Assembly: GCA_018241505.1 (NCBI GenBank)
Contig: JAFEDS010000013.1
Location: forward strand, 311,417 to 375,416
DNA length: 64,000 bases
Origin: Pseudomonadota bacterium
Lineage (GTDB): Bacteria; Pseudomonadota; Gammaproteobacteria; Steroidobacterales; Steroidobacteraceae
Direction: 5' to 3'
The notes under the pieces are model-generated. The model was not told where the DNA came from. It saw only the letters and a program-made list of their open reading frames with translations, and made no database searches. A program made the translations under genes and the position numbers. How positions within the stretch are numbered: the stretch's first letter is position 1; every line of letters begins with the position of its first letter. Positions 44,063 through 63,833 of this stretch are shown here, piece by piece.

Positions 44063-44151
44063 ATAAACGCCGTTGATGCGGTGGCGGCAGCACGGAATGA
44101 TAGGCTGGCCGCTGGATCGTGGAACGGCCTCACTCGAGGGGGTTCGCGCAA

Positions 44152-47057: not shown

Positions 47058-47938
47058 GCAAGGACGTTTCCCTGGCTGCCAAAGTCGGCGCCGAGCTCGG
47101 CGAGGGGCCTGTCTGGATCGAGCGTGACGCGGCGTTGTGGTTCGTCGATATCAAGGGCCCGCGTGTGCATCGCTTCGATCCGGTCACCGGCGAGCGGCGC
47201 TGCTGGGATGCGCCGGAACAGTGCGGATTTGTTCTACCCATTCGGCGCACGGGACTGCAATTGCTGGCCGGCTTGAAAACAGGCCTGCACGAGTTTGATC
47301 CGGCGACCGGCCGATTCACCTTGTTTGCCACGGTGGAACCGCATCTGCCGGACAACCGGCTGAATGACGGTGTCGTCTGCCCTGATGGCACTTTGTGGTT
47401 CGGCTCAATGGACGATCACGCCAAGCGGCCGAGCGGATCGCTGTACCGGCTGAATCCCGGTGGCCGGTGTGTGCCGCTGGACAGTGGTTATATTGTCAGC
47501 AACGGTCCGGCCTTTTCGCCGGACGCCCGGACTTTCTATCACACGGACACCCTCGAGCGGCGTGTGTATGCATTCGATCGCGACGGGTCGGGTGCGCTCA
47601 CAAACCGGCGGGTGTGGCTCGAAATCGAGGCGGAGGGCGGCTATCCCGATGGCTCCGCAGTAGATGCGGAAGGTTGCCTGTGGATTGCCATGTGGGGCGG
47701 ATGGGGCGTGCGGCGCTATTCGCCCGGGGGTGAGTTGCTGTCACAGATTCGACTGCCGTGCGCGAACGTCACCAAGGTGGCCTTCGGCGGTGCCGATTAT
47801 TCCAGCATGTTTGTGACGACCGCGTGGCATGGCCTGACGGCCGTGCAACGCGCCGAGCAGCCCCTCGCAGGTGATTTGTTCTGCTTTGACGCCGCGGTGC
47901 CGGGTCAGAAGCCAACCGAGCTGCGCTTGCAGCTTTAG
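47048..47938 (+). CDS. SMP-30/gluconolactonase family lactonase
   Basis: This 296-residue beta-propeller protein has metal ligand candidates E19 (ELGEGPVW), an asparagine in LPDNRLNDG and an aspartate in GYPDGSAVD, as in regucalcin-type sugar lactonases. It would open a sugar lactone made by a sugar dehydrogenase. The ATG at 47048 overlaps the dehydrogenase gene; the ATG at 47054 is an alternative. It ends four bases into the opposing regulator gene. Its substrate could be arabinonolactone, xylonolactone or a related lactone. Confidence 0.88.
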   Translation: MGMSKDVSLAAKVGAELGEGPVWIERDAALWFVDIKGPRVHRFDPVTGERRCWDAPEQCGFVLPIRRTGLQLLAGLKTGLHEFDPATGRFTLFATVEPHLPDNRLNDGVVCPDGTLWFGSMDDHAKRPSGSLYRLNPGGRCVPLDSGYIVSNGPAFSPDARTFYHTDTLERRVYAFDRDGSGALTNRRVWLEIEAEGGYPDGSAVDAEGCLWIAMWGGWGVRRYSPGGELLSQIRLPCANVTKVAFGGADYSSMFVTTAWHGLTAVQRAEQPLAGDLFCFDAAVPGQKPTELRLQL

Positions 47939-48720
47939 CCCTTCGCGCGGCTCTTTTTGGTGGAGTCGTTGATCCGGCGGTAGCCAATGTCGATGGCTTC
48001 GAGCATCGCTGTGGCGGCCGCCTGTTCATCGCGGGCTTCGATGGCATCCACAATGGCCGCATGAGTGTTCACGGTTCTCTCGTGATCGCTCCAGTCATCC
48101 ACCGGCGAGCTCTGGGAAAAAGAGGCGACCAGCGCTGCCTCGATGACTCCGGCCATTGAGCGCATCAATGGGTTCCCGGAAGCAGTGCCGATTGTCAGGT
48201 GAAAATCGAGGTCTGCTTCCGCGAAGCTCTGACGCGTATGGCCCGAACGCCCCATCAATGCAACGGTGTCGCGCAACGTGACGACATCGGCCTCGGTCCG
48301 TCGCCGCGCTGCGAGCCCGGCCGCGACCGGTTCGATTGCGCGCCGGACTTCGGTGAGCCGCTGCCGGAATTCATCGTCCAAGCCCATCCTGACTCGCCAT
48401 GCGAGCACATCGGCATCAAAGTAGTTCCAGTTCCCGGGATCGAGAACGCGCGTGCCAATACGCGTCTTGGAGGCAACGAAGCCCTTGGCGGTCAGGGTCT
48501 TCATGACTTCGCGCATGACCGTGCGTGAGACCTGGAATCGCTCTATGAGCTCAGGCTCGGGCGGCATGTTCGCGCCCGGACGATGGATGCCCTTGAGGAT
48601 CTCCGTACCCAGGACCGCGGCAATCTGATCGTGGCTGGACAACGTCCGTTCGACGGCGAGCCGGCTCAGGCGTGCGACATTGCGGGTCATGGGTAATATT
48701 ATGGTCTGCGTTGATTCCAT
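47935..48720 (-). CDS. FadR-type GntR transcriptional regulator
   Basis: The 261-residue protein has an N-terminal winged helix (GANMPPEPELIERFQVSRTVMREVMKTL region, about 40-85) and a C-terminal FCD all-helical ligand domain that usually binds a small organic acid or sugar acid. It would repress or activate the sugar cluster converging on it and perhaps the enoyl-CoA hydratase diverging from it. I chose the ATG at 48720, but an ATG at 48690 is possible and would leave TAATATTA at 48694-48701 as a promoter or operator. No ligand is predictable. Confidence 0.85.
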   Translation of the reverse strand: MESTQTIILPMTRNVARLSRLAVERTLSSHDQIAAVLGTEILKGIHRPGANMPPEPELIERFQVSRTVMREVMKTLTAKGFVASKTRIGTRVLDPGNWNYFDADVLAWRVRMGLDDEFRQRLTEVRRAIEPVAAGLAARRRTEADVVTLRDTVALMGRSGHTRQSFAEADLDFHLTIGTASGNPLMRSMAGVIEAALVASFSQSSPVDDWSDHERTVNTHAAIVDAIEARDEQAAATAMLEAIDIGYRRINDSTKKSRAKG

Positions 48721-50124: not shown

Positions 50125-52650
50125 ATGTCAAAAACGAAAGAAGCACGCTCAATGTCCGCCATCCGCATCCAGGCAGCGGTGCGCGTGGCCCTTGCCACGA
50201 CGCTGTGTGTTTCAGCCGCAACAGGGGTTTACGCGGCGGATGCCGTGCCCGCGGAGGATTCTTCAGCTTCGGGGGCGCTGGCGGAGGTGGTCGTTACCTC
50301 ACAACGGCGCGAAGAAAGCCTGAGCAAGGTGCCGATCAGCATCACCGCCATCACTTCGCAGGATATTGATAGCAAGGGCATCAAGGACATTACGGACGTT
50401 GCGCGCTTTACCCCGGGAATTTCCGTCGATACGACGGGAACTGACAACATTGCCATTCGCGGCATTGCCTCCTCCGGCGGTTCGGGTACCACCGGCATCT
50501 ACATTGACGATACGCCCATCCAGATGCGCGGCCTGGCGTTCAACCCGGATGAAGCCTTGCCGAAAGCTTTCGACATCGAGCGTGTGGAGGTCCTGCGCGG
50601 ACCCCAGGGCACCTTGTTCGGCGCCGGCTCGGAAGGTGGCACGGTGCGTTACATCACGACCCAGCCCAGCCTCACTAAAACCAGCGTTTACAGCCGCAAC
50701 GAGGTCTCCTACACCACGCACGGCGATCCCAGCTTTGAAACCGGCATTGCAGCCGGCACACCGCTGATTGACGGCAAGCTCGGTGTTCGCGCGACCGTCT
50801 GGTATCGCCGCGATGGCGGTTGGATCGATCGCCTGGATCCGACTGCAGCCGATCCGCAGAATGCGGTGGTCGACCGCAATGCGAATCACGCCGATAACGT
50901 GATGATCCGGCTGGCCGCCTCGTGGGCTCCCGCGGACAACTGGACGGTGACCCCGAGCGTTTTCTATCAGAGGCGCGACCAGCACGACACCAACGAATAC
51001 TGGCCGCTCTATTCGAACCCGTCGAGTGACAAATACGTCAGCGCCAACCCGACCGGGCGTCCCACTCCGGATAAGTTCTATCTGCCCGCCCTGAAGATCC
51101 AGGGTGACTTCGGCGCCTTTCAGTTGATTTCCAACACCTCGTACTATCACCGTGAGGAAATTTCAGGTTACGACGGTACGCTTTACAACCTGGGCTTCTA
51201 TCAGACATTCGGAGTCCAGGACGGCGTGCCATACCCGCTGTTGGATTCGACCGGCATCCATCTGCCGGCGGACATTGCCAACTACCGCTCGCCGGCCACC
51301 GTCGCCAATGATCAACAGAACTTCACGCAGGAAATCCGGCTCCAGTCCAGTGATCCGAGTTCGAAGCTGCTGTGGACCGGCGGCCTGTTCTTCAGCAGCA
51401 ACCGCCAGCAGTACCTGGAAGAGATCCACGATCCGCAGCTCGAGGCCTTCAGCCAGTCGGTGTTCGGAGTGGGTTATCTCGATGAATTTACGTTCACGGA
51501 TACGGACGGCAACACCGTCTCGGTACCTTACGATCCACGGTACCCCAATGACTCCTACTTCCTCCACACGCACGCGCGCGACAAACAGTACGCCGCCTTC
51601 GGCGAAGCGACCTATGCGCTCACCGACAGCCTGAAGGTGACGGCCGGCATACGCTTCTCACGCACGGAATTTTCTTTCGACAGCGAAACCGGCGGCCCGC
51701 AGCTTTTCGCGCCCAACCAGGAATCGCACCCCGCCAACAAGGAAAATTCATTCACGCCGAAGTTGAACGTTTCGTATCAGATCGATCCGGGCAACATGGT
51801 GTATGCGACCTACGCCAAGGGCTTCCGTCCGGGCGGCGGCAACAATCCGTTGCCGCAAGCGGCGTGCGCGGAGGACTTCCAGAATTTCGGCATTACCAAG
51901 TCGCCGGATTCGTACGAGTCCGACAGCGTGCACAGCTTCGAGGTGGGCTCGAAGAACAGCGTCGGCGGCCGGCTGCGCCTGGCCACGAGCCTCTACTACA
52001 TCCGCTGGAACAACATCCAGCAGACCGTTGTGCCGCCGATCTGTCAGATCTCCTTCATCACCAACCTGGGCAAGGCGCTTGCCTGGGGTGGCGACGTGCA
52101 GGTTGAGTGGCAGGCGACCGACGCGCTCTCCGCTGAGCTGACTGCCGGCTACACCGATGCTCGCTTTACGCGGAATGCATCGTTCGGCTCGACTCAAGGC
52201 GGATACGGCACCGACGGTGTAACACCGATTCTGCCGATCGTGAACCGGGGCAATGCCATCGTCGGTCAAAGCGGGCAGCCAGGGGCGCCTGTGACGGTGT
52301 CAGTGGGGGCTGAGTACAAGTTCTCAGTCGCGCAACATGACTCCTTTGTGCGCTTCGACTATGAGTATGCCGGGCGCAATCACTGGACCTCGCCGCGCCA
52401 GGACCCCAACTCCGGACAGTTCAACGCCGCCAACTACACCCTTTCGGCAACGAACTTCGCCTCGCTGCGCGCGGGCGTGAAGGTCGACGCCTGGTCGATC
52501 GAGCCGTTCATTGACAATCTGTTCGACACCCACACCGTGACGAACTACGACTTCACGATCGATCCGGGAGTGCCGGGCTCTGCGCCGCTGCAGCGGCAGT
52601 TCACATTCCGTCCGCGTACTTACGGTGTGACAGCCACGTACCGGTATTGA
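50125..52650 (+). CDS. TonB-dependent outer-membrane receptor
   Basis: The 841-residue protein has a signal peptide (about 1-38), a TonB-box-like start EVVVTSQRREESL, a plug domain (about 50-170, with GIYIDDTPIQ and VEVLRGPQGTLFGAGSEGGTV) and a long C-terminal barrel ending FRPRTYGVTATYRY. It uses the proton-motive force to import a scarce or large substrate. It is next to the amine island and is read toward the convergent amidohydrolase gene, so the substrate might be an amine-containing compound, but iron or vitamin uptake is equally possible. The ATG at 50125 has a GGGGTGATTTTTC leader; an internal ATG at 50152 could also be used. Confidence 0.92.
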   Translation: MSKTKEARSMSAIRIQAAVRVALATTLCVSAATGVYAADAVPAEDSSASGALAEVVVTSQRREESLSKVPISITAITSQDIDSKGIKDITDVARFTPGISVDTTGTDNIAIRGIASSGGSGTTGIYIDDTPIQMRGLAFNPDEALPKAFDIERVEVLRGPQGTLFGAGSEGGTVRYITTQPSLTKTSVYSRNEVSYTTHGDPSFETGIAAGTPLIDGKLGVRATVWYRRDGGWIDRLDPTAADPQNAVVDRNANHADNVMIRLAASWAPADNWTVTPSVFYQRRDQHDTNEYWPLYSNPSSDKYVSANPTGRPTPDKFYLPALKIQGDFGAFQLISNTSYYHREEISGYDGTLYNLGFYQTFGVQDGVPYPLLDSTGIHLPADIANYRSPATVANDQQNFTQEIRLQSSDPSSKLLWTGGLFFSSNRQQYLEEIHDPQLEAFSQSVFGVGYLDEFTFTDTDGNTVSVPYDPRYPNDSYFLHTHARDKQYAAFGEATYALTDSLKVTAGIRFSRTEFSFDSETGGPQLFAPNQESHPANKENSFTPKLNVSYQIDPGNMVYATYAKGFRPGGGNNPLPQAACAEDFQNFGITKSPDSYESDSVHSFEVGSKNSVGGRLRLATSLYYIRWNNIQQTVVPPICQISFITNLGKALAWGGDVQVEWQATDALSAELTAGYTDARFTRNASFGSTQGGYGTDGVTPILPIVNRGNAIVGQSGQPGAPVTVSVGAEYKFSVAQHDSFVRFDYEYAGRNHWTSPRQDPNSGQFNAANYTLSATNFASLRAGVKVDAWSIEPFIDNLFDTHTVTNYDFTIDPGVPGSAPLQRQFTFRPRTYGVTATYRY

Positions 52651-52667: not shown

Positions 52668-54386
52668 TCACGGTGGGGCCGTGAACACGGTCGTTCCCCC
52701 CACTACGGTCATGAGCACTTTGACGTCAGCGATTTCGCGCGCCGGAATCTTTGTAATATTCCGGTCGAGCACAATCAGGTCGGCCAGCTTGCCGACCTCG
52801 AGGGATCCGACTGCCTGCTCCGCGTGCAACTCATAGGCGGCATTGGCGGTGATGGCCCGGATGGCTGTCGCGACACTGAGTCCCGGATCGGTGCTCAACC
52901 GGCCCCGGTAGGAAGGGCCGGCCGCTGCGCTGTTCTCGCGCGTCACACCCACTTTGAGAGCGAACCATTCGTCCAGGCGATCGACAGGCCAATCGCTTCC
53001 GTAGGCCACGCGGGCGCCAGCATTGGCGAGAAAGCCGGCAGGCTCCAGGTATTTGAAACGCTGCGGGCCCAGGTAGTCGCGTGCGCCTTCGATGGTGTCC
53101 GACGCCGGCTTTTCCCATTGGAAGGAGAGAACCGGGATGGCGCCGAGACTCGCGAAGCGGGGGAAATCGGCAGGCGCCACGATTTCATTGTGCGCGATGG
53201 CCGCGCGGATCTGTGATTCAGGAAACTCCTTGCGCAGGGCTTCGATGGCATCCAGGCCTTCGTGAACAGCCCGGTCGCCGTCGGCATGCATGTGCGGCTC
53301 GAGGCCGTTGCGCGCCAGTCCGAGCAACAGCGCCTTCAACACGGGAGCCGGAAAGTAGACATCGGGGCCACGGTCTTTGCCTCTCGTCAGGTAGGGTTCC
53401 AACATGGCGCCGGTGAAAGCCGGCGCGGTAATGACCCCATCGAGAAACAGCTTCGTGTTGTGAACCGAAATGCCCGGGGCGGGGCGCAGCGCTCCCTGGT
53501 CGAAGCGCCTGGCCAGCGCTTTGACCGCGGCAACCGCCGCGACGGGATCCAGATTGGCGGCGGGCTTGATGACCGGTGCGAAATGGGCTCGCACGGTGAG
53601 ATCGCCGGCGCGCTGCACAGTCGAAAACGACTCGAGGTCGATACTCTCGGCGGCCGCATCCAGGAACGTGGTGATGCCCTGTTTGCGCAGCGCCTCGAGC
53701 GCCGCGCGGGCCGCGGCAACACTTTCGGCCCGCGTCGGTGCCGGAATGAGGTCCATGACTTTTGTCTGGGCAGCGTCTTCCAGCAGCCCGGAAGGCTTGC
53801 CGTCGGCATTGTGTTGGATCTTGCCGCCGACGGGGTCAGGCGTTTTCGCGTCGATCCGCGCGAGCTGCAGTGCCCGGCTGTTGGCCAACACCGTATGGCC
53901 GAACGACGACATGACTGCGATGGGCCGGTGCGTCGGCAGTGAGTCGAGAGTCGCGCTGGTCACTGCGACGCCGGCCGGCAGCATATCCTGTTGGAACCAG
54001 TTGACCACTTCGAGCCACTGGTCCGGTTCCCGTGCGTGGGTTTGGTCCAGGCAGGCCTGGATGCGCTGTTGGAACTGGGGGACTGTCAGCTTCTCGTAGT
54101 TGAGATTGCACTTCAGCAGGACGGTTCCGCCATCCTGCGGGTGCATGTGGCCGTCGATCAGCCCAGGCATCAGCATGCGTCCGTGCAGGTCGACAATCTT
54201 GGTTGTCGGTTTTGCCAGCGCCGTGGCGCCGGCAGTGGAACCTACGTAGCTGATACGTCCATCCTTGACGGCGATGGCTTGCTGGACGCTGTTGACCTTG
54301 TCTACCGTGTAGACGTAGCCGTTCGTGTAGATTGTGTCCGGGACGTTACTGACAGCAAGTGCGGTTGCCGCTAACACAAGGAGCAT
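52668..54386 (-). CDS. Secreted amidohydrolase family 3 (YtcJ-like)
   Basis: The 572-residue enzyme has a short hydrophobic leader (MLLVLAATALAVSNV, a marginal signal peptide), the first metal-ligand motif DGHMHPQDGG, and further ligands in HMHADGDRAVHEG, IAHNEIVAP and VAYGSDWPVD. Members hydrolyse amides and related C-N bonds with two metals. It lies 15 bases after the cytochrome and amine dehydrogenase genes. If it acts in the periplasm, it may release free amines from N-acyl compounds for oxidation there. That link is a hypothesis; the fold is clear. Confidence 0.85.
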   Translation of the reverse strand: MLLVLAATALAVSNVPDTIYTNGYVYTVDKVNSVQQAIAVKDGRISYVGSTAGATALAKPTTKIVDLHGRMLMPGLIDGHMHPQDGGTVLLKCNLNYEKLTVPQFQQRIQACLDQTHAREPDQWLEVVNWFQQDMLPAGVAVTSATLDSLPTHRPIAVMSSFGHTVLANSRALQLARIDAKTPDPVGGKIQHNADGKPSGLLEDAAQTKVMDLIPAPTRAESVAAARAALEALRKQGITTFLDAAAESIDLESFSTVQRAGDLTVRAHFAPVIKPAANLDPVAAVAAVKALARRFDQGALRPAPGISVHNTKLFLDGVITAPAFTGAMLEPYLTRGKDRGPDVYFPAPVLKALLLGLARNGLEPHMHADGDRAVHEGLDAIEALRKEFPESQIRAAIAHNEIVAPADFPRFASLGAIPVLSFQWEKPASDTIEGARDYLGPQRFKYLEPAGFLANAGARVAYGSDWPVDRLDEWFALKVGVTRENSAAAGPSYRGRLSTDPGLSVATAIRAITANAAYELHAEQAVGSLEVGKLADLIVLDRNITKIPAREIADVKVLMTVVGGTTVFTAPP

Positions 54387-54401
54387 TCAGGAGACTCCGA
54401 A

Positions 54402-54851
54402 TCAATACTGGGAGGGTGGGCTGGATCCTGTTGTTGCCAGATTGTGGACTACCGCACTGCGGGTGGCGAGTACGGACAGCAACGGCTGATGGCGCAGGGC
54501 GGCCACTTCATTGGTCGTAAACGGCGAGGGTGTCTTTGCGGATGCATTGGAATCGTACTTGACCGCGAGCCAATTCAACACCGCGGCGAGTTGTTCATCC
54601 GACAAGGCCGAGTTGGCTGCGCCGGGGACCCGCAGCACGTAATTGCGGCCTTCGGCGGTACGCATGAATTGGCGCAGCGCGTTGGCGAGTGGCGGTACCT
54701 TGCCGGGAACTCCCTGTGCCTCGGTGCCATGGCAGCCCATGCAGTGGAGGGCATAGTCCTGAGAAGGATTCGCAGCGTGGGCGCCGACGGTCGTCAACAA
54801 GCTGGCCAGCGCGGCGGCTACCGCGGCGCCCGCTGCCGCGGCGCGCCTCAT
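54402..54851 (-). CDS. Small periplasmic c-type cytochrome
   Basis: A 149-residue protein with a signal peptide (about 1-26, VGAHAANP) and one heme-binding CMGCH at 37-41. M63 in LRQFMRTAEG is a possible axial ligand. The C-terminal 40 residues after SNASAKTPSPF look disordered. It overlaps the quinone-dehydrogenase subunit gene before it by four bases, so it is the natural electron acceptor for that enzyme in place of a blue copper protein. It is not a di-heme MauG-type protein. Confidence 0.85.
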   Translation of the reverse strand: MRRAAAAGAAVAAALASLLTTVGAHAANPSQDYALHCMGCHGTEAQGVPGKVPPLANALRQFMRTAEGRNYVLRVPGAANSALSDEQLAAVLNWLAVKYDSNASAKTPSPFTTNEVAALRHQPLLSVLATRSAVVHNLATTGSSPPSQY

Positions 54852-55357
54852 TTTTCAGCCACGCCCAGGATGACCGACACCGAGCAGTGGTAGTTGGATT
54901 CGGAGTTGGCCATGCACCAGTTGACGTCGTTGTTGCGCGAGAGCCGGTACATCGGCTTCTCGCCTTCGTTACGCTCGCAGAAGCAATCGCCGCAGCTCAC
55001 TTTCCCGCAACAGTCATTGTACGAAACAATGTAGTCGCGTCCGTCAGTCGGATTGTGGCAGGTGCCGATCCAGGTAATGGGCGAGGACTGCGTGCCGGGC
55101 GGACAGGACGTGGAGGTCCCGCCGCAACAGGCGCACAGGAATCCATCAATGGCACAGTATTTCCAATACTGGCAATTCTGCTCATCGGCGCTCGGCCGGG
55201 CCGGCTCCTGCGCGCGTGCCGTGCGATCGATCGGCAGCAATGGCAACAACGCGGCTCCGGTGAGCAACTGACCGAGGGATGCCAGCAGGCAGCGCCGCGA
55301 GGTGCGCTTGGCCAGGGAGCGGGCGCGGTTCTCAACCAGGCGATCGAGGTTCTTCAT
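54848..55357 (-). CDS. mauA: TTQ amine dehydrogenase light chain
   Basis: The 169-residue precursor has a long Tat-like leader (TSRRCLLASLGQ, 19-30) and a cysteine-rich mature part. The two tryptophans that become tryptophan tryptophylquinone are W96 (PITWIGTC) and W147 (DVNWCMA), 51 residues apart as in known enzymes, and D71 (CAIDG) and D115 (NDCCG) match the catalytic/biogenesis aspartates of MADH. It has 14 cysteines in the mature part rather than the 12 of Paracoccus MauA. The heavy chain gene overlaps it by four bases and the cytochrome gene follows with another such overlap. This is the catalytic subunit of a periplasmic primary amine dehydrogenase. Confidence 0.94.
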   Translation of the reverse strand: MKNLDRLVENRARSLAKRTSRRCLLASLGQLLTGAALLPLLPIDRTARAQEPARPSADEQNCQYWKYCAIDGFLCACCGGTSTSCPPGTQSSPITWIGTCHNPTDGRDYIVSYNDCCGKVSCGDCFCERNEGEKPMYRLSRNNDVNWCMANSESNYHCSVSVILGVAEK

Positions 55358-56523
55358 GGGTTCAACATCAATTGTGGAGTCTGGCCGAGGTTCTTTTCAT
55401 CGTGCCGCAACTTTCCGGTTTGGGCATCGAGGATCAGCACGTGCGATTTATCCGTGGCGACAAACAGCAACGGCGCCGGATCCTGCGATACCTGCACGGC
55501 CACCGCGCCGCCGGTTACCCGGGTGTCGATGGGCCAGCGCGCCGTGCGTTGGTGTGACTTCAGGTCGAACACCCAGATTTCGGTGCCGGGGTCCTTGTGC
55601 GAACCGTCCCCGCCTTTGTGCATGGGCACAAACAACTTGTTCAGTCCCCGATGGACTGCGCCGATCTGCACGCCGCCGGGTCGCCAGGTGCCTTTTTCGG
55701 CCGCGCTGACCAGCGACCACGCGGCTCGGGCGGCGGGCCTCTTCTGCGTGAAGTCGATTTCGTGCACCTGGCCGAGAAACGACAGGTAGGCGTAGCCGTC
55801 GGACAGAGGAACGGCCTGCGCGAAAACCGGATCCTCGTCGACGTTGAAGAACTGCTCCGAGCTCGTACGTGAGGCTTCCTTGCCCTGGGCATTCAGTGTG
55901 ACGGTCAACAGGCGCCCGCTCTCACAAATGGAAGACACCTGGTTCGGACCCCAGGGAAAAACCAGGGTACAGCCGGCCGTGTCGATCTCACTCAACACGG
56001 TCTTTTTGGCCGGATCCAACACGCCGAACGACGCCGCGGGCGTCAGGTACGGCACATAGACAAATTTGCCGTCCGAGCTGTAACCCATGGTGAACAGCAT
56101 GGACAGCGTCTGGGCGTGCTTGGGTGGAATGACAATCTCGCCGGTCTTGCCGAGCGTGTTGTTGTCGTTGAATTCGACTACGTCGGTGCGGGTGCCGTGG
56201 CCGCCCCGGGCGAAATAGGTTGTTGCCACGGCCGTCGTATGGCCGTCCGGGGAAATATTGACGGCTGGAAAGAACCCGGCGTCAATCTGGCCGATGCGCC
56301 GATGTGTATCGCCGTCAAACAGCCAGACGCGTGAGTCGATCTCGTTGTTGAACGCGTAGTCGACCACGTACACCCAATGAGGCGATTTCGGTCCGACCGT
56401 GGAGATCGTCAGATGCTCCGCTGCAAGCGGCGGCGGCTGCGGTTTGGCGGGCGCCGCACCCCAGGAGGGAGCGATGCTCGCAGCGAGCATTCCCAGCGTC
56501 ACACCTGGCCAATATTTTCTCAT
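55354..56523 (-). CDS. mauB: TTQ amine dehydrogenase heavy chain
   Basis: The ATG at 56523 has a GGGGGTAG leader and opens a signal peptide (SIAPSWGA|APAK); upstream sequence in frame reads as noise. The 389-residue seven-bladed propeller protein matches MauB/AauB heavy chains in length and in repeats such as WVYVVDYAFNNEIDSRVWLFDGD and PFGVLDPAKK-like segments. It binds the TTQ-bearing light chain and shapes the amine channel. It is first in a leftward operon (mauB, mauA, cytochrome, amidohydrolase) and is divergent from the flavoprotein operon. Methylamine versus aromatic or longer amine preference cannot be decided from the sequence by eye. Confidence 0.92.
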   Translation of the reverse strand: MRKYWPGVTLGMLAASIAPSWGAAPAKPQPPPLAAEHLTISTVGPKSPHWVYVVDYAFNNEIDSRVWLFDGDTHRRIGQIDAGFFPAVNISPDGHTTAVATTYFARGGHGTRTDVVEFNDNNTLGKTGEIVIPPKHAQTLSMLFTMGYSSDGKFVYVPYLTPAASFGVLDPAKKTVLSEIDTAGCTLVFPWGPNQVSSICESGRLLTVTLNAQGKEASRTSSEQFFNVDEDPVFAQAVPLSDGYAYLSFLGQVHEIDFTQKRPAARAAWSLVSAAEKGTWRPGGVQIGAVHRGLNKLFVPMHKGGDGSHKDPGTEIWVFDLKSHQRTARWPIDTRVTGGAVAVQVSQDPAPLLFVATDKSHVLILDAQTGKLRHDEKNLGQTPQLMLNP

Positions 56524-56541
56524 TTCTACCCCCTGGACCGT

Positions 56542-56555
56542 TCGAGCGCGCTCGA
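56542..56555. promoter_or_regulatory. 14-base palindrome in the divergent promoter of the amine island
   Basis: TCGAGCGCGCTCGA at 56542-56555 is a perfect palindrome in the 89-base spacer between mauB and the flavoprotein gene. It is placed to allow one regulator to control both directions. Note that GC-rich palindromes are more likely by chance here. Confidence 0.45.
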
Positions 56556-56612
56556 GTCTCGCATATCGCACACCGAGTCGAAAGTAGTGAGGATTCGCGC
56601 TACGCTGCCGGC

Positions 56613-58532
56613 ATGAAAGAAGCGCGTCCACCTCACTCGCGGGAGCGGAATCTCGGCGAGGACAGGCAGATTCCGCGGCGTGACTTTCTGCAAGGAGCAC
56701 TGGTCGCCGCGGCAACAACTTTAACCGGCCCCCTGCTGCAGGCACAGGCGGCGGAGAGCGTCGAGCCGCAAAATGCAGCCGGGTACTACCCTCCGGCCTC
56801 GACGGGGCTGCGGGGCAGTCATCCGGGCTCGTTCGAAACGGCGCATGCTGTGCGGGACGGCCGTCAGCCCAGCGCTCCAACCGACAGCGGCGAAGCCTAT
56901 GACCTGGTGGTCGTTGGCGGCGGCATCAGTGGGCTGTCGGCGGCCCACTTCTTCCAGGCCCGGGCGGGCCGGGCGACCCGCATCCTGATCCTGGACAATC
57001 ACGATGACTTCGGCGGCCACGCCAAGCGCAACGAGTTCCAGTTGGGCGGCCGCCTGCAGTTGCTGAACGGTGGCACCCTCGAAATCGACAGTCCGCGTCC
57101 GTACGCAGCCGTTCCAAAGGCTTTGCTCGCCGAGCTGGGCATTGATGTGCCGGCCTTGAGCCGTCAGGTCGAGCATCCGAAGTTCTATGAATCGCTCGGC
57201 ATGCGCGCCGGTGTGTTTTTCGATCGGGAGACCTTCGGAGCCGACAAACTGGTGTCGGGCTACCATTCCGTGCCAATCAGCACGCTGCTGTCGGATGCAC
57301 CGTTGTCGGCCCGCGCGCGCGAGGATATTCGGCGCATCGAAGAAGGCGCCGCCGATTTCATGCCGGGGCTCACTTCCGATGCGAAGAAACTGCAACTGTC
57401 GAAAATCAGCTACGCCGCTTATTTGCGCGACTACGTCAAAGCGGATCCGGCCGCCATTGCTTTCTACCAAGCATGGCCGCACGGTGAATGGGGCGTGGGG
57501 ATCGATGCGATATCGGCCCTTGATTGCTGGGGCTTTGGAATGGTCGGGTTCAAAGGTCTCGGGCTCACGCCCGGGATCATCCCGCGCATGGGTTACACGC
57601 CTTCCGGGTACGCTGCGACGGGCGGATCGGACACGCTGCACTTCCCCGACGGTAATGCAACCATCGCCCGGTTGTTGGTGCGCAAGCTCGTTCCGGAGGC
57701 AATTCCAGGCACGACCGCGACCGACATCGTTACCGCGCGTGCCCGCTACGACGTTCTCGACCGCGCTGGAGCGCCGACACGGATTCGACTCAACAGCACG
57801 GTCGTTCGCGCGGTCAACAGCAGCGCGGGAGTGGAAGTCACGTACGTCAACGGTGGCGGCACATTCAAGGTCCGCGCCCGCAATTGCGTGATGGCCTGTT
57901 GGAACATGATGATTCCCTACCTGTGTCCGGAGTTGCCGGAGGCGCAGAAAGCGGCTCTCCACAAACTCGTCAAGACACCGCTCGTCTACACCAGTGTGGC
58001 ATTACGCAACTGGGAGTCTTTCCACAAACTGAAGGTGAGCCGGGTGTATGCGCCGGCGGGGTATCACTCGAGCCTCGCATTGAACTGGAATATGAAAATC
58101 GGCGCCTACCACAGCCCGGACTCGCCCGCCGAGCCGATTCTGCTGCACATGACCCGGACGCCGTGCAAGCCGAATGTGGGTTTGTCGGAGCACGAGCAGA
58201 ACAAGGCCGGGCGTGCCGAATTGCTCGCCACGCCGTTCGCCACCTTTGAGCGCAACATTCGCGATCAATTGGCCCGCACGCTCGCCGGTGGCGGTTTCGA
58301 CCCAGCGCGCGACATAGAAGCAATTACCGTCAACCGGTGGCCGCACGGCTATGCGGCGGAATATAACCCGCTGTGGGATCCGGATGGACCTGAGGACCAG
58401 CGGCCAAATGTAATCGGGCGCGCCATCTTCGGCAGGATCGCCATCGCGAATTCGGATGCGGGCGGCGCTGCCTACACGGATTCGGCAATTGCGCAGGCGG
58501 ATCGGGCAGTGAACGAGTTGTTGAAGGGGTGA
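56613..58532 (+). CDS. Tat-exported flavin amine dehydrogenase (spermidine dehydrogenase-like)
   Basis: The 639-residue protein has a Tat signal with R22-R23 (IPRRDFLQGAL), an FAD-binding motif DLVVVGGGISGLSAAHF at about 97-113 and NHDDFGGHAKRNEF. Later parts such as HGEWGVGIDAISALDCWGFG resemble the Pseudomonas SpdH spermidine dehydrogenase, which cleaves spermidine in the periplasm. It heads a rightward operon and overlaps the next flavoprotein gene by four bases. Electron acceptor and exact amine are unknown; a polyamine is my best guess from family similarity. Confidence 0.8.
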   Translation: MKEARPPHSRERNLGEDRQIPRRDFLQGALVAAATTLTGPLLQAQAAESVEPQNAAGYYPPASTGLRGSHPGSFETAHAVRDGRQPSAPTDSGEAYDLVVVGGGISGLSAAHFFQARAGRATRILILDNHDDFGGHAKRNEFQLGGRLQLLNGGTLEIDSPRPYAAVPKALLAELGIDVPALSRQVEHPKFYESLGMRAGVFFDRETFGADKLVSGYHSVPISTLLSDAPLSARAREDIRRIEEGAADFMPGLTSDAKKLQLSKISYAAYLRDYVKADPAAIAFYQAWPHGEWGVGIDAISALDCWGFGMVGFKGLGLTPGIIPRMGYTPSGYAATGGSDTLHFPDGNATIARLLVRKLVPEAIPGTTATDIVTARARYDVLDRAGAPTRIRLNSTVVRAVNSSAGVEVTYVNGGGTFKVRARNCVMACWNMMIPYLCPELPEAQKAALHKLVKTPLVYTSVALRNWESFHKLKVSRVYAPAGYHSSLALNWNMKIGAYHSPDSPAEPILLHMTRTPCKPNVGLSEHEQNKAGRAELLATPFATFERNIRDQLARTLAGGGFDPARDIEAITVNRWPHGYAAEYNPLWDPDGPEDQRPNVIGRAIFGRIAIANSDAGGAAYTDSAIAQADRAVNELLKG

Positions 58533-59848
58533 GCGTGGCCGGTTCGCTGTGGTACGCAACCGCTGCTCCCGGTCCTGTGCTGGGACCACTCACCGCGAGC
58601 GTGCGCGCTGAGGTTGCGATCATCGGTGCGGGCTACACCGGCCTGTCGGCCGCCCTGCGGCTCGCCGAGGCCGGCCGGGATGTGGTCGTGTTGGAAGCCC
58701 TGGAGGTGGGCGAACGCGCATCGGGCCTCAATGGCGGGCAGGTGATTCCGGGTGTCAAACACGATCCTGACATCCTGGAGGAAATGTTCGGCCCGGTGGC
58801 CGGTTCGCGGCTCGTGGACACCGTCGCCTCCGGCCCCGATGTGGTCTTCGATCTGATCCGCAAATATGAAATTGCCTGCGCGGCCACACGTACCGGCTGG
58901 ATTCAGCCGGCTACCTCGCCCGCGACCCTGGAGGTCATTGCCGCGCGGGTGGGTCAATGGCGCCGGCGCGGGGCCGATGTTGAGTTGTTGTCGGCGGCCG
59001 AGACCGCGCGGCTGATCGGCTCGCAGCGTTATCTCGGCGCCTGGATCGACAGGCGGGGCGGCACGATTCAGCCGTTGTCGTATGTTCGGGGCCTGGCGCG
59101 CGCGGCCCGCGGTGCCGGTGCGCGGATTTTCAGCCAATCGCCCGCGACGGACCTGGAGGAAACTCACAGCGAATGGCGAATACAAACTCCGCAGGGCAGT
59201 GTCGTCAGTGCCATGGTCATCATTGCAACAGACGCCTATACGGACCGGCTCGTGGACCCGTTGCGACGAACGTTGATTCCCGTGCCTTCGTTCCAGGTGG
59301 CGACCGAGCCGATCTGCGACGAGCTGCGCCAGACGATTCTGCCGGAAGGCCAGTCGGCGTCGGACACCTGGCATCTGCTGCGTTATTTCAGACTGGATCC
59401 GACAGGGCGGCTCGTGATGGGCTCGCGCGGGACATTCGCTGACGTACCGGTTGCCGTGGCGGCCCGGCACCATTACCGTGCCGTCCGCGAGATTTTTCCG
59501 CAGCTCGAGGGGATCCGCTACGAATATCACTGGGGCGGGCTCGTGGGAATGACGCGCGACCACCTGCCTCACCTGCATGAGATCGCCCCCGGGCTGCTCA
59601 CGGGTCTGGGATACAACGGGCGCGGTGTTGCCATGGCGACGGTAATGGGCCGGATTCTGGCCGACTGGGCGCTCGGCATGCCGGGGCCGGAGTTGGCTTT
59701 TCCGGTTACGCCGCTGGCGCCGATTCCCATGCACCGCTTCAATCAATTCGGGGCCCGCATGGTCATCCAGGGGTTGCGTGCCATGGATGGGCTTGCGCGG
59801 GTGCGCGACCGCTGGTCGGCGCGATCGGCCCCAGGACTGTCACTATGA
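58529..59848 (+). CDS. FAD-dependent amine oxidase, PuuB/OrdL-like
   Basis: The 439-residue protein starts at GTG 58529, coupled to the previous gene by GTGA. It has the DAO-family FAD motif VAIIGAGYTGLSAALRLAEAG (about 29-49), the ERASGLNGGQVIPG segment typical of gamma-glutamylputrescine oxidases, and the C-terminal LLTGLGYNGRGVAMAT. It oxidises an amine or amino acid to an imine in the cytoplasm. In a cluster with periplasmic polyamine dehydrogenase it may finish amine degradation after uptake. The end overlaps mauE by four bases. Confidence 0.87.
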   Translation: MSVAGSLWYATAAPGPVLGPLTASVRAEVAIIGAGYTGLSAALRLAEAGRDVVVLEALEVGERASGLNGGQVIPGVKHDPDILEEMFGPVAGSRLVDTVASGPDVVFDLIRKYEIACAATRTGWIQPATSPATLEVIAARVGQWRRRGADVELLSAAETARLIGSQRYLGAWIDRRGGTIQPLSYVRGLARAARGAGARIFSQSPATDLEETHSEWRIQTPQGSVVSAMVIIATDAYTDRLVDPLRRTLIPVPSFQVATEPICDELRQTILPEGQSASDTWHLLRYFRLDPTGRLVMGSRGTFADVPVAVAARHHYRAVREIFPQLEGIRYEYHWGGLVGMTRDHLPHLHEIAPGLLTGLGYNGRGVAMATVMGRILADWALGMPGPELAFPVTPLAPIPMHRFNQFGARMVIQGLRAMDGLARVRDRWSARSAPGLSL

Positions 59849-60366
59849 GCATCGATCCGGCTGTCGCCTGTTTGATCGCCGCCTGCGTGGGGCTGCTGTT
59901 CCTGGTCGCGGCGATCCACAAGTTGCGCGACCTGCGCCGCTTCCGCGAGGTGTTTGCCGCTTATCGCCTGGCTCCGCCCGCCGCCGGGCGTGCCCTGGCA
60001 CCGGTAGTGCCGGCGCTGGAGCTCGCCGTTGCGGTCGGGTTGTTGTTTGATAACCTGCGCACGCCGGCGCTGTGGACCGGCATCGCACTGTTGCTCCTGT
60101 ACGTGGCGGGTATCGCCATCAACCTGGCCCGCGGGCGCCGCGATCTGGATTGCGGCTGCGCGGGTCCGTACGACCGCCGTCCGATCGCCGCCTGGATGAT
60201 CTGGCGCAATCTCGGAATCGCGATTGTGCTGGCCGCTGCGCTGCTGCCCTGGAGCGGACGGCCCATGGTGCTGACCGATGCCGTCACCATCGGCTTCGGA
60301 ACCGCCTGCTGTGCGCTGGTTTACCTCTGCCTCGACCGACTGTTGACTCCCGCCCGCGCTCCCTGA
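59845..60366 (+). CDS. mauE: MauE membrane protein for amine dehydrogenase maturation
   Basis: This 173-residue integral membrane protein has four or five hydrophobic helices and the conserved segment RGRRDLDCGCAGP with paired cysteines (about 97-109) that marks MauE. MauE and MauD help move disulfide-bonding power to the periplasm for the heavily cross-linked light chain. It overlaps the flavin oxidase gene before it (ATGA) and precedes mauD by 23 bases. Its presence on the strand opposite to mauBA is unusual. Confidence 0.9.
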   Translation: MSIDPAVACLIAACVGLLFLVAAIHKLRDLRRFREVFAAYRLAPPAAGRALAPVVPALELAVAVGLLFDNLRTPALWTGIALLLLYVAGIAINLARGRRDLDCGCAGPYDRRPIAAWMIWRNLGIAIVLAAALLPWSGRPMVLTDAVTIGFGTACCALVYLCLDRLLTPARAP

Positions 60367-60389
60367 CAATTTCTCAACGAGACTGACCG

Positions 60390-60983
60390 ATGAGTGCACT
60401 TGCCGTTTCCAATGTCGTACTGTGGATTGTTGTGTTGGGTCTGCTGGCCCTCGTGTTGGCGTTGACCCGCCAGATCGGTGTTTTGCACGAGCGGATATCG
60501 CCTGTGGGCGCGCTGATGATCAACAAGGGGCTCACCGTGGGTGAGAAGGTGCCCGTGATCGACGTCAGTGACCTGAGTGGCCAGGCGTTGCAGGTGGGCG
60601 CGCCGCGCAGCGACGGCTTGAGCACGCTGCTGCTGTTTGTATCGCCCACGTGCCCCGTGTGCGAGTCGCTTCTGCCGGTGTTGCAAGCCAGCCGCAAGCA
60701 GGAGAAAAGCTGGTTGCACATCGTACTTGCCAGCGACGGCGACCTCGCCACGCAGCGCGAGTTTGTCCGCGGCAAGGGCCTGACCGGGTTTCAATATGTT
60801 GTGTCAGCGCCGCTGGGCATGACCTATCAGGTCAGCCGCTTGCCGTTCGCGGCGCTGGTGGATGCCGCGGGGATCCTGCGGGCCCGCGGCCTCGTCAACT
60901 CGCGGGAACACCTGGAAAGTCTGTTTGAGGCGCAAAGGCTGGGCGTCGCGTCATTGCAGGAATATTTCGTTGCACACAGTTAG
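60390..60983 (+). CDS. mauD: MauD thioredoxin-like maturation factor
   Basis: The 197-residue protein has an N-terminal membrane anchor (about 8-27, VVLWIVVLGLLALVLAL) and a periplasmic thioredoxin-fold domain with CPVC at C88-C91 (SPTCPVCESLLP). It is needed to form the light chain disulfides in methylamine dehydrogenase. The sequence between anchor and thioredoxin domain (RQIGVLHERISPVGALM) is typical of MauD. It is the last gene of the rightward amine operon and ends in a hairpin. A link to the light chain encoded on the other strand is expected. Confidence 0.93.
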   Translation: MSALAVSNVVLWIVVLGLLALVLALTRQIGVLHERISPVGALMINKGLTVGEKVPVIDVSDLSGQALQVGAPRSDGLSTLLLFVSPTCPVCESLLPVLQASRKQEKSWLHIVLASDGDLATQREFVRGKGLTGFQYVVSAPLGMTYQVSRLPFAALVDAAGILRARGLVNSREHLESLFEAQRLGVASLQEYFVAHS

Positions 60984-61027: not shown

Positions 61028-61188
61028 CTACCTCTTTTGAGGGAGGGTAGGGGAACGCCCCGCCGCCCTAAGCTGCGCGCCTGCGAGACAATCGGCGCCG
61101 TTCGTACAATATTCGGTGCATCGCATTCGTCTATCAGCTTGCCGCACCGGATTTGCGACGCTTTCTTTCAAACTATAGAGTGCTCAAC

Positions 61189-62667
61189 ATGTTACGGCGC
61201 TCCACCATTGCCGGCGTGATCGCCGTGGGCTCGTTGGCTGGCTGTGCCGTTGGCCCGGACTTTCACGCGCCAGCACCGCCCACGACATCCAATTACACGC
61301 GTGGCCAACAACCGGGGGTGACCTCGGATGCGCCTGTGCCCGGCGGGGCCGCGCAGACATTGCAAACTGACAGGGACATACCGGCTGACTGGTACAGTCT
61401 TTTTCAGTCCGAGCCACTGGATGAGCTGGTTCGCAGGGCCCTGCACGACAGTCCGACGGTGGTGGCGGCAAAGGCCGCGTTACGTTCGGCGCAAGACAGC
61501 TATCGCGCCGAACGCGGCGCGCTGTTTCTGCCCCAGGCGGATGGCCAGCTCGGTGTGACGCGCCAGAAATCCCCGGGCGCGGCTTTTGGCGCCCCGAGCG
61601 CGCCCACGACCCAGTTCACTCTCTATAACGCGACGGTGAACGTTACCTATCGACTCGATATTTTCGGTGGTTCCCGCCGCCAACTCGAGCAACTGGGCGC
61701 CCAGACTGACTTTCAGCGCTGGGAGCTCGAGGCCACCAATCTGACTCTGACCGGCAATGTCGTGACGACGGCCTTCGACGTTGCGTCCCTGACCGATCAA
61801 CTGGCTGCCGTGAAGGACGTGGTCGCTGCCGAGTCCGAGCAGTACAAGGTCGTACAAAGGCAGTTCGAGGTGGGCGGAGCCTCGAAATCCGACGTTCTGT
61901 CCCAGCAGGCCCAGCTTGCCCAGGCCACCGCGGTGGTGCCGGGCTTGGAGAAGGCGCTTGCGCAGGCTCAACACCGCCTGGCTGTGTTGGCAGGGCGCAC
62001 GCCCGACGATGCAAGTGTTCCCGACTTTGCGCTGGATCGCTTCACGCTGCCGACGGAGTTGCCTGTGAGTGTGCCGGCGAAGCTGATCCGGCAGCGCCCG
62101 GATGTTCAGGCTGCGGAGGCCCAGTTGCATCAGGCGACGGCCGCGGTTGGAATCGCCACCGCGAACCTTTACCCGCAGCTCAACCTGACGGGATCGATCG
62201 CCTCGGAATCCATTACGAGTGGCGGACTGTTCGGGGCGGGCACGGGGGCGTGGAGCGCCGGTGCGTCATTGCTGCAGCCTCTGTTCCATGGCGGTGAGCT
62301 GCGCTACAAGCGGCGGGCGGCGGTGGCAGCCCTGGAGCAGGCCGATGCCAACTATCGCCAAACGGTGTTGGCCGCAATGGAGGAAGTCGCTAACACGCTG
62401 CGCGCGCTCGAGACGGATGCGCGGGCTCTGCGTGCCCAGGTCGATGCCGAGAAGGCGGCCGCGGATGCGTTCGACATTTCCAAGAAACAGTTCCGGGTCG
62501 GGGGTGTGAGTTACGTGACGGTATTGAACGCGCAGCGTTTGTTTCTCGAGGCACGCCAGAGCCGCGTCCAGGCCCAGGCGGCCCGGTATTCGGACTCCGC
62601 GGCCTTGTTCCAGGCGCTGGGGGGCGGCTGGTGGAATCGAAAGGATCAAGAGGTGGCCGGCAAATGA
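61189..62667 (+). CDS. RND efflux outer-membrane lipoprotein (NodT family)
   Basis: The ATG at 61189 opens a lipoprotein leader (IAVGSLAGC) and a 492-residue TolC-type channel with two repeats of long helices (roughly 70-230 and 290-470). The motif CAVGPDFHAPAPP after the lipobox is typical of NodT/OprM-like proteins. It forms the exit duct for a tripartite pump. It overlaps the adaptor gene by four bases. The substrate is unknown. Confidence 0.9.
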   Translation: MLRRSTIAGVIAVGSLAGCAVGPDFHAPAPPTTSNYTRGQQPGVTSDAPVPGGAAQTLQTDRDIPADWYSLFQSEPLDELVRRALHDSPTVVAAKAALRSAQDSYRAERGALFLPQADGQLGVTRQKSPGAAFGAPSAPTTQFTLYNATVNVTYRLDIFGGSRRQLEQLGAQTDFQRWELEATNLTLTGNVVTTAFDVASLTDQLAAVKDVVAAESEQYKVVQRQFEVGGASKSDVLSQQAQLAQATAVVPGLEKALAQAQHRLAVLAGRTPDDASVPDFALDRFTLPTELPVSVPAKLIRQRPDVQAAEAQLHQATAAVGIATANLYPQLNLTGSIASESITSGGLFGAGTGAWSAGASLLQPLFHGGELRYKRRAAVAALEQADANYRQTVLAAMEEVANTLRALETDARALRAQVDAEKAAADAFDISKKQFRVGGVSYVTVLNAQRLFLEARQSRVQAQAARYSDSAALFQALGGGWWNRKDQEVAGK

Positions 62668-63833
62668 GCAGCATCGTCTCGGATGACAGGGTCTACGATC
62701 GCGCCGCCTTGCGCCGCCGTATGATCTTCGTGGTACTCGGCGCCCTGCTGCTGCTGGCGTTGATTGTCGGATTCAACATCTGGAAGGCCAACCTGGTCGC
62801 CGGAATCCGCAAGAAGAACGCAGCGCCGCCGCAGACAGTCAGTGCCGCCGCCGTCGAGTACACCGACTGGCAGCCTGAGATCAGTGCGGTCGGCAGCATG
62901 CGTGCCGTGCGCGGTGTCGATGTGACGACGGAAGTCGCGGGACTGGTGCGTTCGCTGCGCTTCAAGTCCGGTGATGAGGTCAAGGCCGGCCAGGTGCTGG
63001 TTGAGTTGAATGCGGACGCGGAGCTCGCCCAGCAGCATGCGCTGGAGGCGGCCGCTGACCTGTCGGCAACGGTCTACGCACGCGACAAGGAACAGTACGA
63101 TGCCCAGGCAATCAGCCAGGCACAGTTGGATGCGGATGCCGCGGATCTGAAAAACAAGCGGGCGCAGGCGGCCGCGCAGGCCGCGCTGGTGGCGAAGAAG
63201 TTCATTCGCGCGCCCTTCGATGGCCGTCTGGGCATCACGACCGTGAATCCCGGGCAGTATCTCAACACCGGCGACAAGGTGGTGACGTTGCAGGAAGTGA
63301 ATCCCATCTACGTGGACTTCAAGCTGCCGCAACAGCAGTTGGCGGCGATTGCCAATGGCCAGTCGGTCAACCTGACCACCGACTCGTTCCCGGGTGTCAC
63401 GTTTGTCGGCAAGATCAACGCCATCGATCCGCGAGTCGATGCGAGCACCCGCAACTTCCAGGCGGAAGCGACGATTCCCAATCCTGACCGCAAGCTGCTG
63501 CCGGGCATGTTCACGCGGGTCGCGGTCATTGCCGGCGACAAGAAGCAGTACCTGACGCTGCCGCAGACCGCCATTACCTACAACCCGTACGGCGCCACCG
63601 TGTTCGTGGCACAGAAGAAACCGGGCGGTTCCGACAAGGACCTGGTTGCACAACAGAGCTTCGTGACGCTCGGTCCCACGCGCGGCGACCAGGTCGCGGT
63701 GTTGAAGGGCGTGCAGGAGGGCGAGCTCGTGGTGACCAGCGGCCAGATGAAGCTGATCAACGGCGTGCAGTTGATTATCGACAATTCGGTACTGCCGGCC
63801 AACAACCCGAATCCCAGCCCGCAAGAGCAGTGA
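62664..63833 (+). CDS. RND efflux periplasmic adaptor
   Basis: The ATG at 62664 overlaps the outer-membrane gene stop (ATGA). The 389-residue protein has a membrane anchor (about 21-44, RMIFVVLGALLLLALIVGF), lipoyl-like halves (VTTEVAGLVRSLRFKSGDEVKAGQ and FIRAPFDGRLGITTVNPGQ) and a beta-barrel with IDPRVDASTRNFQAEA. It links the inner-membrane pump to the outer-membrane channel. The short helical hairpin places it with MexA/AcrA-like or MdtA-like adaptors. Confidence 0.9.
   Translation: MSSIVSDDRVYDRAALRRRMIFVVLGALLLLALIVGFNIWKANLVAGIRKKNAAPPQTVSAAAVEYTDWQPEISAVGSMRAVRGVDVTTEVAGLVRSLRFKSGDEVKAGQVLVELNADAELAQQHALEAAADLSATVYARDKEQYDAQAISQAQLDADAADLKNKRAQAAAQAALVAKKFIRAPFDGRLGITTVNPGQYLNTGDKVVTLQEVNPIYVDFKLPQQQLAAIANGQSVNLTTDSFPGVTFVGKINAIDPRVDASTRNFQAEATIPNPDRKLLPGMFTRVAVIAGDKKQYLTLPQTAITYNPYGATVFVAQKKPGGSDKDLVAQQSFVTLGPTRGDQVAVLKGVQEGELVVTSGQMKLINGVQLIIDNSVLPANNPNPSPQEQ

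Follow-up and report, generated by a model that had tools for sequence, protein, structure and literature searches.

A split-strand aau-type amine dehydrogenase locus with flavin amine oxidases and a possible role in periplasmic di- and polyamine deamination

Known enzymes that use tryptophan tryptophylquinone (TTQ) act on methylamine or on aromatic amines, and the aau genes form a contiguous cluster in the order aauBEDA. Here we describe a locus in a 64,000-nt window (the whole stretch of DNA analyzed, to which all positions refer) of contig JAFEDS010000013.1 from a Steroidobacteraceae genome, in which homologues of these genes are divided between two divergent operons: a leftward one with the order mauB-mauA-cytochrome c-amidohydrolase, and a rightward one with an SpdH-like flavoprotein, a DAO-family flavin oxidase, mauE, and mauD. 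We propose, with moderate confidence, that the locus serves mainly the periplasmic deamination of diamines and polyamines by the TTQ enzyme beside an SpdH-type dehydrogenase, perhaps after release of the amine from conjugates, the substrate being one that we infer from the surrounding genes. In what follows, G000 is the host genome, and other L and G numbers designate compared loci and genomes.

Among the closest known systems is the aralkylamine dehydrogenase (aau) cluster of Alcaligenes faecalis. The likenesses are chains that match aromatic amine dehydrogenase (AADH) best, a monohaem cytochrome c beside mauA, and the lack of a linked mauG, but in the window mauE and mauD follow two flavin-enzyme genes on the other strand, and an amidohydrolase belongs to the mauBA operon. 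The mau cluster of Paracoccus denitrificans shares homologues of mauA, mauB, mauD, and mauE as well as the TTQ residues, whereas the window has no adjacent amicyanin, mauF, mauG, mauJ, or mauR, its mauB and mauA adjoin, and its chains score under the cut-offs of the methylamine dehydrogenase (MADH) equivalogs. Pseudomonas aeruginosa SpdH (PDB 7d9f-7d9j) resembles the window flavoprotein over nearly its full length, including the twin-arginine leader and both heme-b histidines, but the window gene stands in an operon with the DAO oxidase, mauE, and mauD, beside a TTQ dehydrogenase. The Escherichia coli Puu pathway (PuuA, PuuB) and AmaA are represented by the DAO family of the second flavin enzyme, whereas a PuuA partner appears not in the window but at another host locus, L019 on contig C7. 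No published description of this arrangement was recognized among titles and abstract openings, a coverage in which most subscription journals fall outside. What is new is that one genome holds six mauBA pairs, which a tree divides among four supported clades, and that SpdH-like and Amidohydro_3 genes cluster around them.

Both chains of the dehydrogenase find AADH as their top PDB match (for the heavy chain its alpha subunit, E 6.4e-52), and both miss the MADH equivalogs TIGR02658 and TIGR02659 (146.4 bits against a cut-off of 454.45, and 160.9 against 196.85). Family scans support the MauA and MauB labels of the original prediction; the enzyme itself is nearer to AADH than to MADH. MauA retains the two TTQ tryptophans (W96 and W147) and the catalytic base (D115), all three conserved in 120/120 aligned light-chain rows (154 loci with mauB, less 34 repeats), and its heavy-chain partner is a beta-propeller. 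The roles of the corresponding AADH and MADH residues (Phe55, Asp128, Trp109/160) are presumed here, passages of PMC4949571, PMC4030948, and PMC9547800 not giving them. With AADH as the closest solved relative and cytochrome c rather than amicyanin beside mauA, the enzyme would be an aau-type TTQ amine dehydrogenase, an assignment that we hold as part of the whole proposal and at its level of confidence, its TTQ chemistry being predicted from conserved residues. It departs from the contiguous aau order, since B and A adjoin and E and D lie on the opposite strand, and the mau order mauFBEDACJG with amicyanin and mauG, as seen on comparison with L225, is likewise absent from the window.

The two flavin enzymes provide the link to polyamines. 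The SpdH-like protein aligns to P. aeruginosa spermidine dehydrogenase across residues 20-636 of 639 and has the flavin adenine dinucleotide (FAD) site, and its start scores slightly below the cut-off of the TAT_signal model (22.0 against 22.7 bits). In the P. aeruginosa enzyme heme b is held between His54 and His562, and spermidine is converted to 1,3-diaminopropane and 1-pyrroline, cytochrome c being an example of the acceptor (PMC12564564). By hand count on the PDB-match alignment the window protein has H77 and H578 at these places, positions that are His in 8/8 and 9/9 of the nine SpdH-like proteins of the host (the ninth being read in its C-terminal part only), and spermidine oxidation is predicted from homology. 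The second enzyme is 32% identical to E. coli PuuB, and its top NCBIfam model is the L-pipecolate oxidase AmaA (NF050086; 347 of 600 bits, under the cut-off); no leader was seen by eye, and the protein is probably cytoplasmic. It had been called PuuB-like, a name that is loose in view of that identity and that model. When the window and the rest of the collected loci were searched by tblastn with E. coli PuuA (E 1e-10), L019 and the named relatives L046 and L084 were alone in giving matches, and at these three a PuuA-like ligase and a PuuB-like oxidase lie near mauBA. Together with a true SpdH relative holding both heme-b histidines, these ligases make the previously suggested polyamine link plausible.

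In the route that we propose, whose substrate, order of steps, and regulation are drawn from gene context and homology, a TonB-dependent receptor would import the amine or an amine conjugate, and the amidohydrolase would release the amine where it is N-acylated. SpdH would then cut the secondary amine of the polyamine, an activity known in its P. aeruginosa relative, and MauAB would deaminate the terminal primary amines through TTQ and pass electrons to the small cytochrome c, while the DAO oxidase may complete the processing of the secondary-amine product in the cytoplasm. MauE and MauD would fold the disulfide-rich light chain, both at this locus and in trans for other mauA products. If the proposal is true, the range of TTQ would grow, through a clade directed at polyamines, to include a widespread class of nitrogen compounds, for which there would be a mainly periplasmic route.

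The layout and its flavin partners recur among relatives. We compared two overlapping sets of loci: a relatives' set, consisting of the flanking DNA of every one of the 68 mauA matches found outside the host in a 196-genome survey (a limited number of candidates being scored per genome), and a named set of 80 loci, the best among 573, which together hold 82 mauA genes. Among the 68 relative loci mauB directly adjoins mauA in 45, mauE and/or mauD lie between them in 21, and the remaining 2, close to a contig end, showed no mauB; in the named set mauE/mauD intervene in 59/82, and 23 are split. The arrangement is therefore no one-off, and the earlier remark that known clusters keep B, E, D, and A together applies to many (the 21 and 59 loci just given, and P. 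denitrificans) but not to the host locus. An SpdH-like or DAO gene is found no more than 9 kb away at 31/45 split but 0/21 canonical relative loci (Fisher 3e-8, kinship ignored), at 17/23 split but 1/59 canonical named loci, and at 5/6 host loci; many contigs end early, so that absences of neighbors are overcounted. Flavin amine oxidases are thus a recurrent companion of the split mau type, in agreement with the partnership originally proposed.

An IQ-TREE tree was built from 78 rows that we selected out of the 120. DAO genes accompany 18/24 relative loci of the clade that holds the window copy (the window clade), 11/12 of a second clade, and 0/30 of the others. In the relatives' mauA genomes SpdH lies within 10 kb of mauA for 10/49 matches against 0.42 expected (98 matches used, with six own matches and five fragments excluded, and at best six candidates per genome), and 44/45 split relative loci have a related cytochrome no more than 2 kb away. 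The order mauB-mauA-cytochrome c-amidohydrolase is found again in L154, L174, L176, and L184 (their hydrolases being 26-28% identical to the panel queries), and the divergent placement of mauED opposite mauBA recurs in L042, L036, and G038, all near the window copy on the tree. In tree-aware pair tests the association of DAO with a TauE-like permease agrees in 5.4/8 pairs and is opposed in none (median p 0.06). A molybdopterin oxidoreductase, also considered as a partner of the flavin oxidases, was not supported (2.6 pairs agreeing and 1.6 opposing, of 11). Co-inheritance of the two operons, which the original prediction had made its own test, fails in its strict form: in G005 (L250, L199) and G050 (L226, L202) the SpdH/mauED genes are on a different contig from a mauBA pair of another clade, and we reject the view of the two operons as an inherited unit.

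The main alternative, which we judge rather unlikely, is an ordinary dehydrogenase of aralkylamines (tyramine, phenylethylamine, or tryptamine) to which the flavin enzymes are loosely linked and from which mauED has moved away. It draws on the AADH affinity of both chains, on the failure of strict co-inheritance, and on the evolutionary lability of the layout, the split state requiring 7 changes on supported branches of the tree. The distribution of flavin oxidases over split and canonical loci speaks against it, as does the heavy-chain loop beside the gate residue. With P. denitrificans MauB as the alignment reference (mature numbering by a 31-residue offset inferred from chain lengths), the position of MADH Phe55 is Asn59 in the window MauB; Glu61, two residues further on, is Glu in 29/30 window-clade rows having a residue there, and its column is acidic in 0/54 canonical rows, Met being the most frequent residue among them (36). 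In the alignment the window clade has Glu in place of Met/Leu in the loop that adjoins the presumed gate residue.

Several observations weigh against the di- and polyamine proposal itself, beyond the reliance of its substrate on gene context and homology. SpdH is near just 5/24 window-clade and 4/12 second-clade relative loci, and mauED near just 1/24 window-clade loci, although some of these contigs end early. When kinship is taken into account, the pairing of split layout with flavin oxidases agrees in a mean of 2.5/7 pairs, with 0 opposing, and is not significant (median p 0.5), as the aralkylamine explanation would also have it. No PuuA-type ligase was detected in the window by the search given above. 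Glu61 was spotted post hoc, and 2 heavy-chain columns of the window clade gain an acid in this way (acidic in >90% of the clade and <30% of canonical rows), a placement expected in roughly 3% of cases by a rough hand count. The second clade has Asp at the Phe55 column in 10/10 rows with a residue (the eleventh, the host's own copy, is gapped), but this is only one among ten acid-gain columns there and so carries little weight. Because of these ten columns we lowered the probability of a wider reading, now unlikely in our judgment, in which a TTQ clade has been re-aimed at diamines or polyamines through an acidic gate-loop residue (Glu in the window clade, Asp in the second), both with DAO-TauE-type partners and sometimes SpdH, and in which the host's six receptor-hydrolase-TTQ loci would each serve a different conjugated amine while sharing mauED.

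Six mauA and six mauB genes, paired at six places, are present in the host genome (7.88 Mb in 46 contigs; completeness 93.9%, contamination 5.67%). In the 196-genome survey 57 genomes, the host included, have mauA and 139 have none; the other 56 carry one or two each. A class-wide sample of 369 genomes including the host has 13 with mauA, and the highest count elsewhere is three. The tree distributes the six copies over four supported clades: one unites the window copy with a C7 copy, one unites a different C7 copy with that of C8, and the two others hold the remaining C7 copy and the C17 copy, respectively. Given this spread we reject a recent tandem duplication of mauBA. The six copies may reflect a mixed bin, in keeping with the contamination estimate and with an imperfect tetranucleotide separation (the host's own C1 stretch scores 0.973). 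Against this, three of the copies share contig C7, and the C4, C7, C8, and C17 stretches correlate at least 0.98 with the C4/C7 tetranucleotide mean (which includes the C4/C7 stretches), as compared with 0.825-0.979 at 11 other loci. Such divergent copies, six in a single genome, would allow side-by-side tests of TTQ substrate specificity.

The neighbors of these copies form a pattern. Counting genes up to 6.5 kb from each of the six mauA genes, we find SpdH-like ones at 4 sites (9 genomic copies; binomial 8e-7), that on C17 being only distantly related (28%); strong Amidohydro_3 matches at 4 sites (2e-6), counting as strong 12 of 103 in the broad family (11 matches under E 1e-60 and one split match); gamma-glutamyltranspeptidase genes at 2 sites (5 copies; 1e-3); and TonB plugs at 5 sites (3e-3, or ~7e-3 by hand with 186 receptors). 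These estimates assume uniform placement and were made post hoc; SpdH-like and Amidohydro_3 genes nonetheless cluster around host mauBA beyond simple chance. This clustering lends some weight to the earlier idea of an amidohydrolase that first releases the amine.

The same neighborhoods, together with a carboxylesterase beside the C8 mauBA pair, would also suit general scavenging of amine conjugates, in which six TTQ loci each combine a receptor, a hydrolase, and a dehydrogenase of different amine specificity, polyamines being one case. We think this quite improbable: the hydrolases differ from one another, none having a known conjugate substrate, their export is putative, and TonB receptors are very common in the host (150 scored of 186). 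The receptor next to the window's amidohydrolase is a possible importer for the locus, and a 43% identical paralogue adjoins SpdH-like genes in L020.

Other host loci show further combinations. On C7, L019 (160000-179999) is a second full locus running in one direction, with mauE, mauD, an amidohydrolase, a TauE-like permease, cytochrome c, the PuuB-like oxidase, the PuuA-like ligase, mauB, mauA, and a twin-arginine molybdopterin oxidoreductase, and with a GntR regulator and an AmaA-like oxidase on the opposite strand. A gamma-glutamyltranspeptidase-family gene in L020 (1871-5328; C7) ends 17 bases ahead of mauB on the same strand, likely in one operon, and a similar gene is near the C17 mauBA pair (L022:3020-4747). 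In L021 (10314-11987; C8) the carboxylesterase-family gene lies upstream of mauBA, in the slot taken by a flavin oxidase at other loci. The TonB set of the host is very large as a whole, with 150 plug matches scored of 186 candidates.

The maturation genes appear to be separable units. MauD exceeds the TIGR02661 cut-off of 188.6 bits and had no Pfam match in the family scan; MauE is found at E 1e-15 or better in 52/56 other mauA genomes but in 9/139 without mauA. We collected 34 mauE places away from mauA loci and scanned them with the panel: 20 hold mauE-mauD alone, 3 mauE alone, 3 just a TonB receptor in addition, 2 a DAO gene without SpdH, and 1 mauB; in 3 an SpdH-like gene precedes mauED (DAO being present in G038/L227 and G005/L250 and not detected in G050/L226), and 2 had no panel match. 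Because the host has six mauA genes for only two strong mauE genes, and because free-standing mauED pairs occur, mauED probably acts in trans for other mauA genes. With such units one can ask which factors are required for TTQ maturation in the aau type, which has no linked mauG. A search for PF03150 (MauG) gave no match on the four mauA-bearing contigs, and a contig without mauA encodes a single diheme protein resembling P. denitrificans MauG (36% over 320 aa; L222, G000 C1:122000-137000). That the DAO or SpdH-like flavoprotein replaces MauG as TTQ maturase, by analogy with quinohemoprotein amine dehydrogenase, for whose cysteine tryptophylquinone a flavoprotein is essential (PMC7876137), would fit the missing PF03150 but is highly improbable, since neither flavoprotein occurs near any of the 21 canonical relative loci, the relative of the SpdH-like protein is a polyamine dehydrogenase of solved structure, and the genome does hold that one unlinked MauG-like protein.

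The features of the locus are listed in Table 1. All eight reading frames of the split-strand island first predicted are present at the places and on the strands proposed, and family scans agree with the eight families named; amended are the looseness of one oxidase name, the amidohydrolase, whose start is only weakly signal-like, and the start of mauB, most likely the ATG at 56523 (389 aa) in preference to a far-upstream TTG of the raw frame. Neighboring genes overlap by 4 bp at mauB/mauA, mauA/cytochrome, SpdH/DAO, and DAO/mauE, and gaps of 15 bp and 23 bp separate cytochrome from amidohydrolase and mauE from mauD. Given these four overlaps and the related arrangements that recur elsewhere, the arrangement goes beyond chance. 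A simple scan of the divergent gap found no sigma-70-type promoter match.

Table 1. Features of the locus in window coordinates
Feature	Position	Strand	Evidence
TonB-dependent outer-membrane receptor	50125..52650	+	Plug and beta-barrel Pfam matches
Amidohydro_3 metal-dependent hydrolase, final gene of the leftward operon	52668..54386	-	PF07969, 268.8 bits
Small monohaem c-type cytochrome, CMGCH	54402..54851	-	PF00034, 31.6 bits
mauA/aauA, TTQ light chain	54848..55357	-	PF02975, 175.9 bits
mauB/aauB, heavy-chain beta-propeller	55354..56523	-	PF06433, 138.5 bits
Divergent intergenic region, 89 bp, separating both operons	56524..56612	.	Sequence
SpdH-like FAD/heme-b amine dehydrogenase, twin-arginine leader	56613..58532	+	PDB 7d9f-7d9j, E 1.7e-140
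DAO-family flavin oxidase (AmaA/PuuB-like)	58529..59848	+	PF01266, 224.7 bits
mauE, membrane maturation protein	59845..60366	+	PF07291, 96.1 bits
mauD, thioredoxin-like maturation protein, CPVC motif	60390..60983	+	TIGR02661, 206.9 bits

Elsewhere in the window, positions 44119-48720 encode a major facilitator superfamily sugar transporter, an aldehyde dehydrogenase, an SMP-30/gluconolactonase protein, and a GntR regulator, resembling a sugar-acid catabolic operon. After mauD, an outer-membrane efflux protein and a membrane-fusion protein (61153-63833) adjoin a 1029-aa frame beyond the window (L023); these genes probably form a resistance-nodulation-division pump, with no tie to the amine locus seen.

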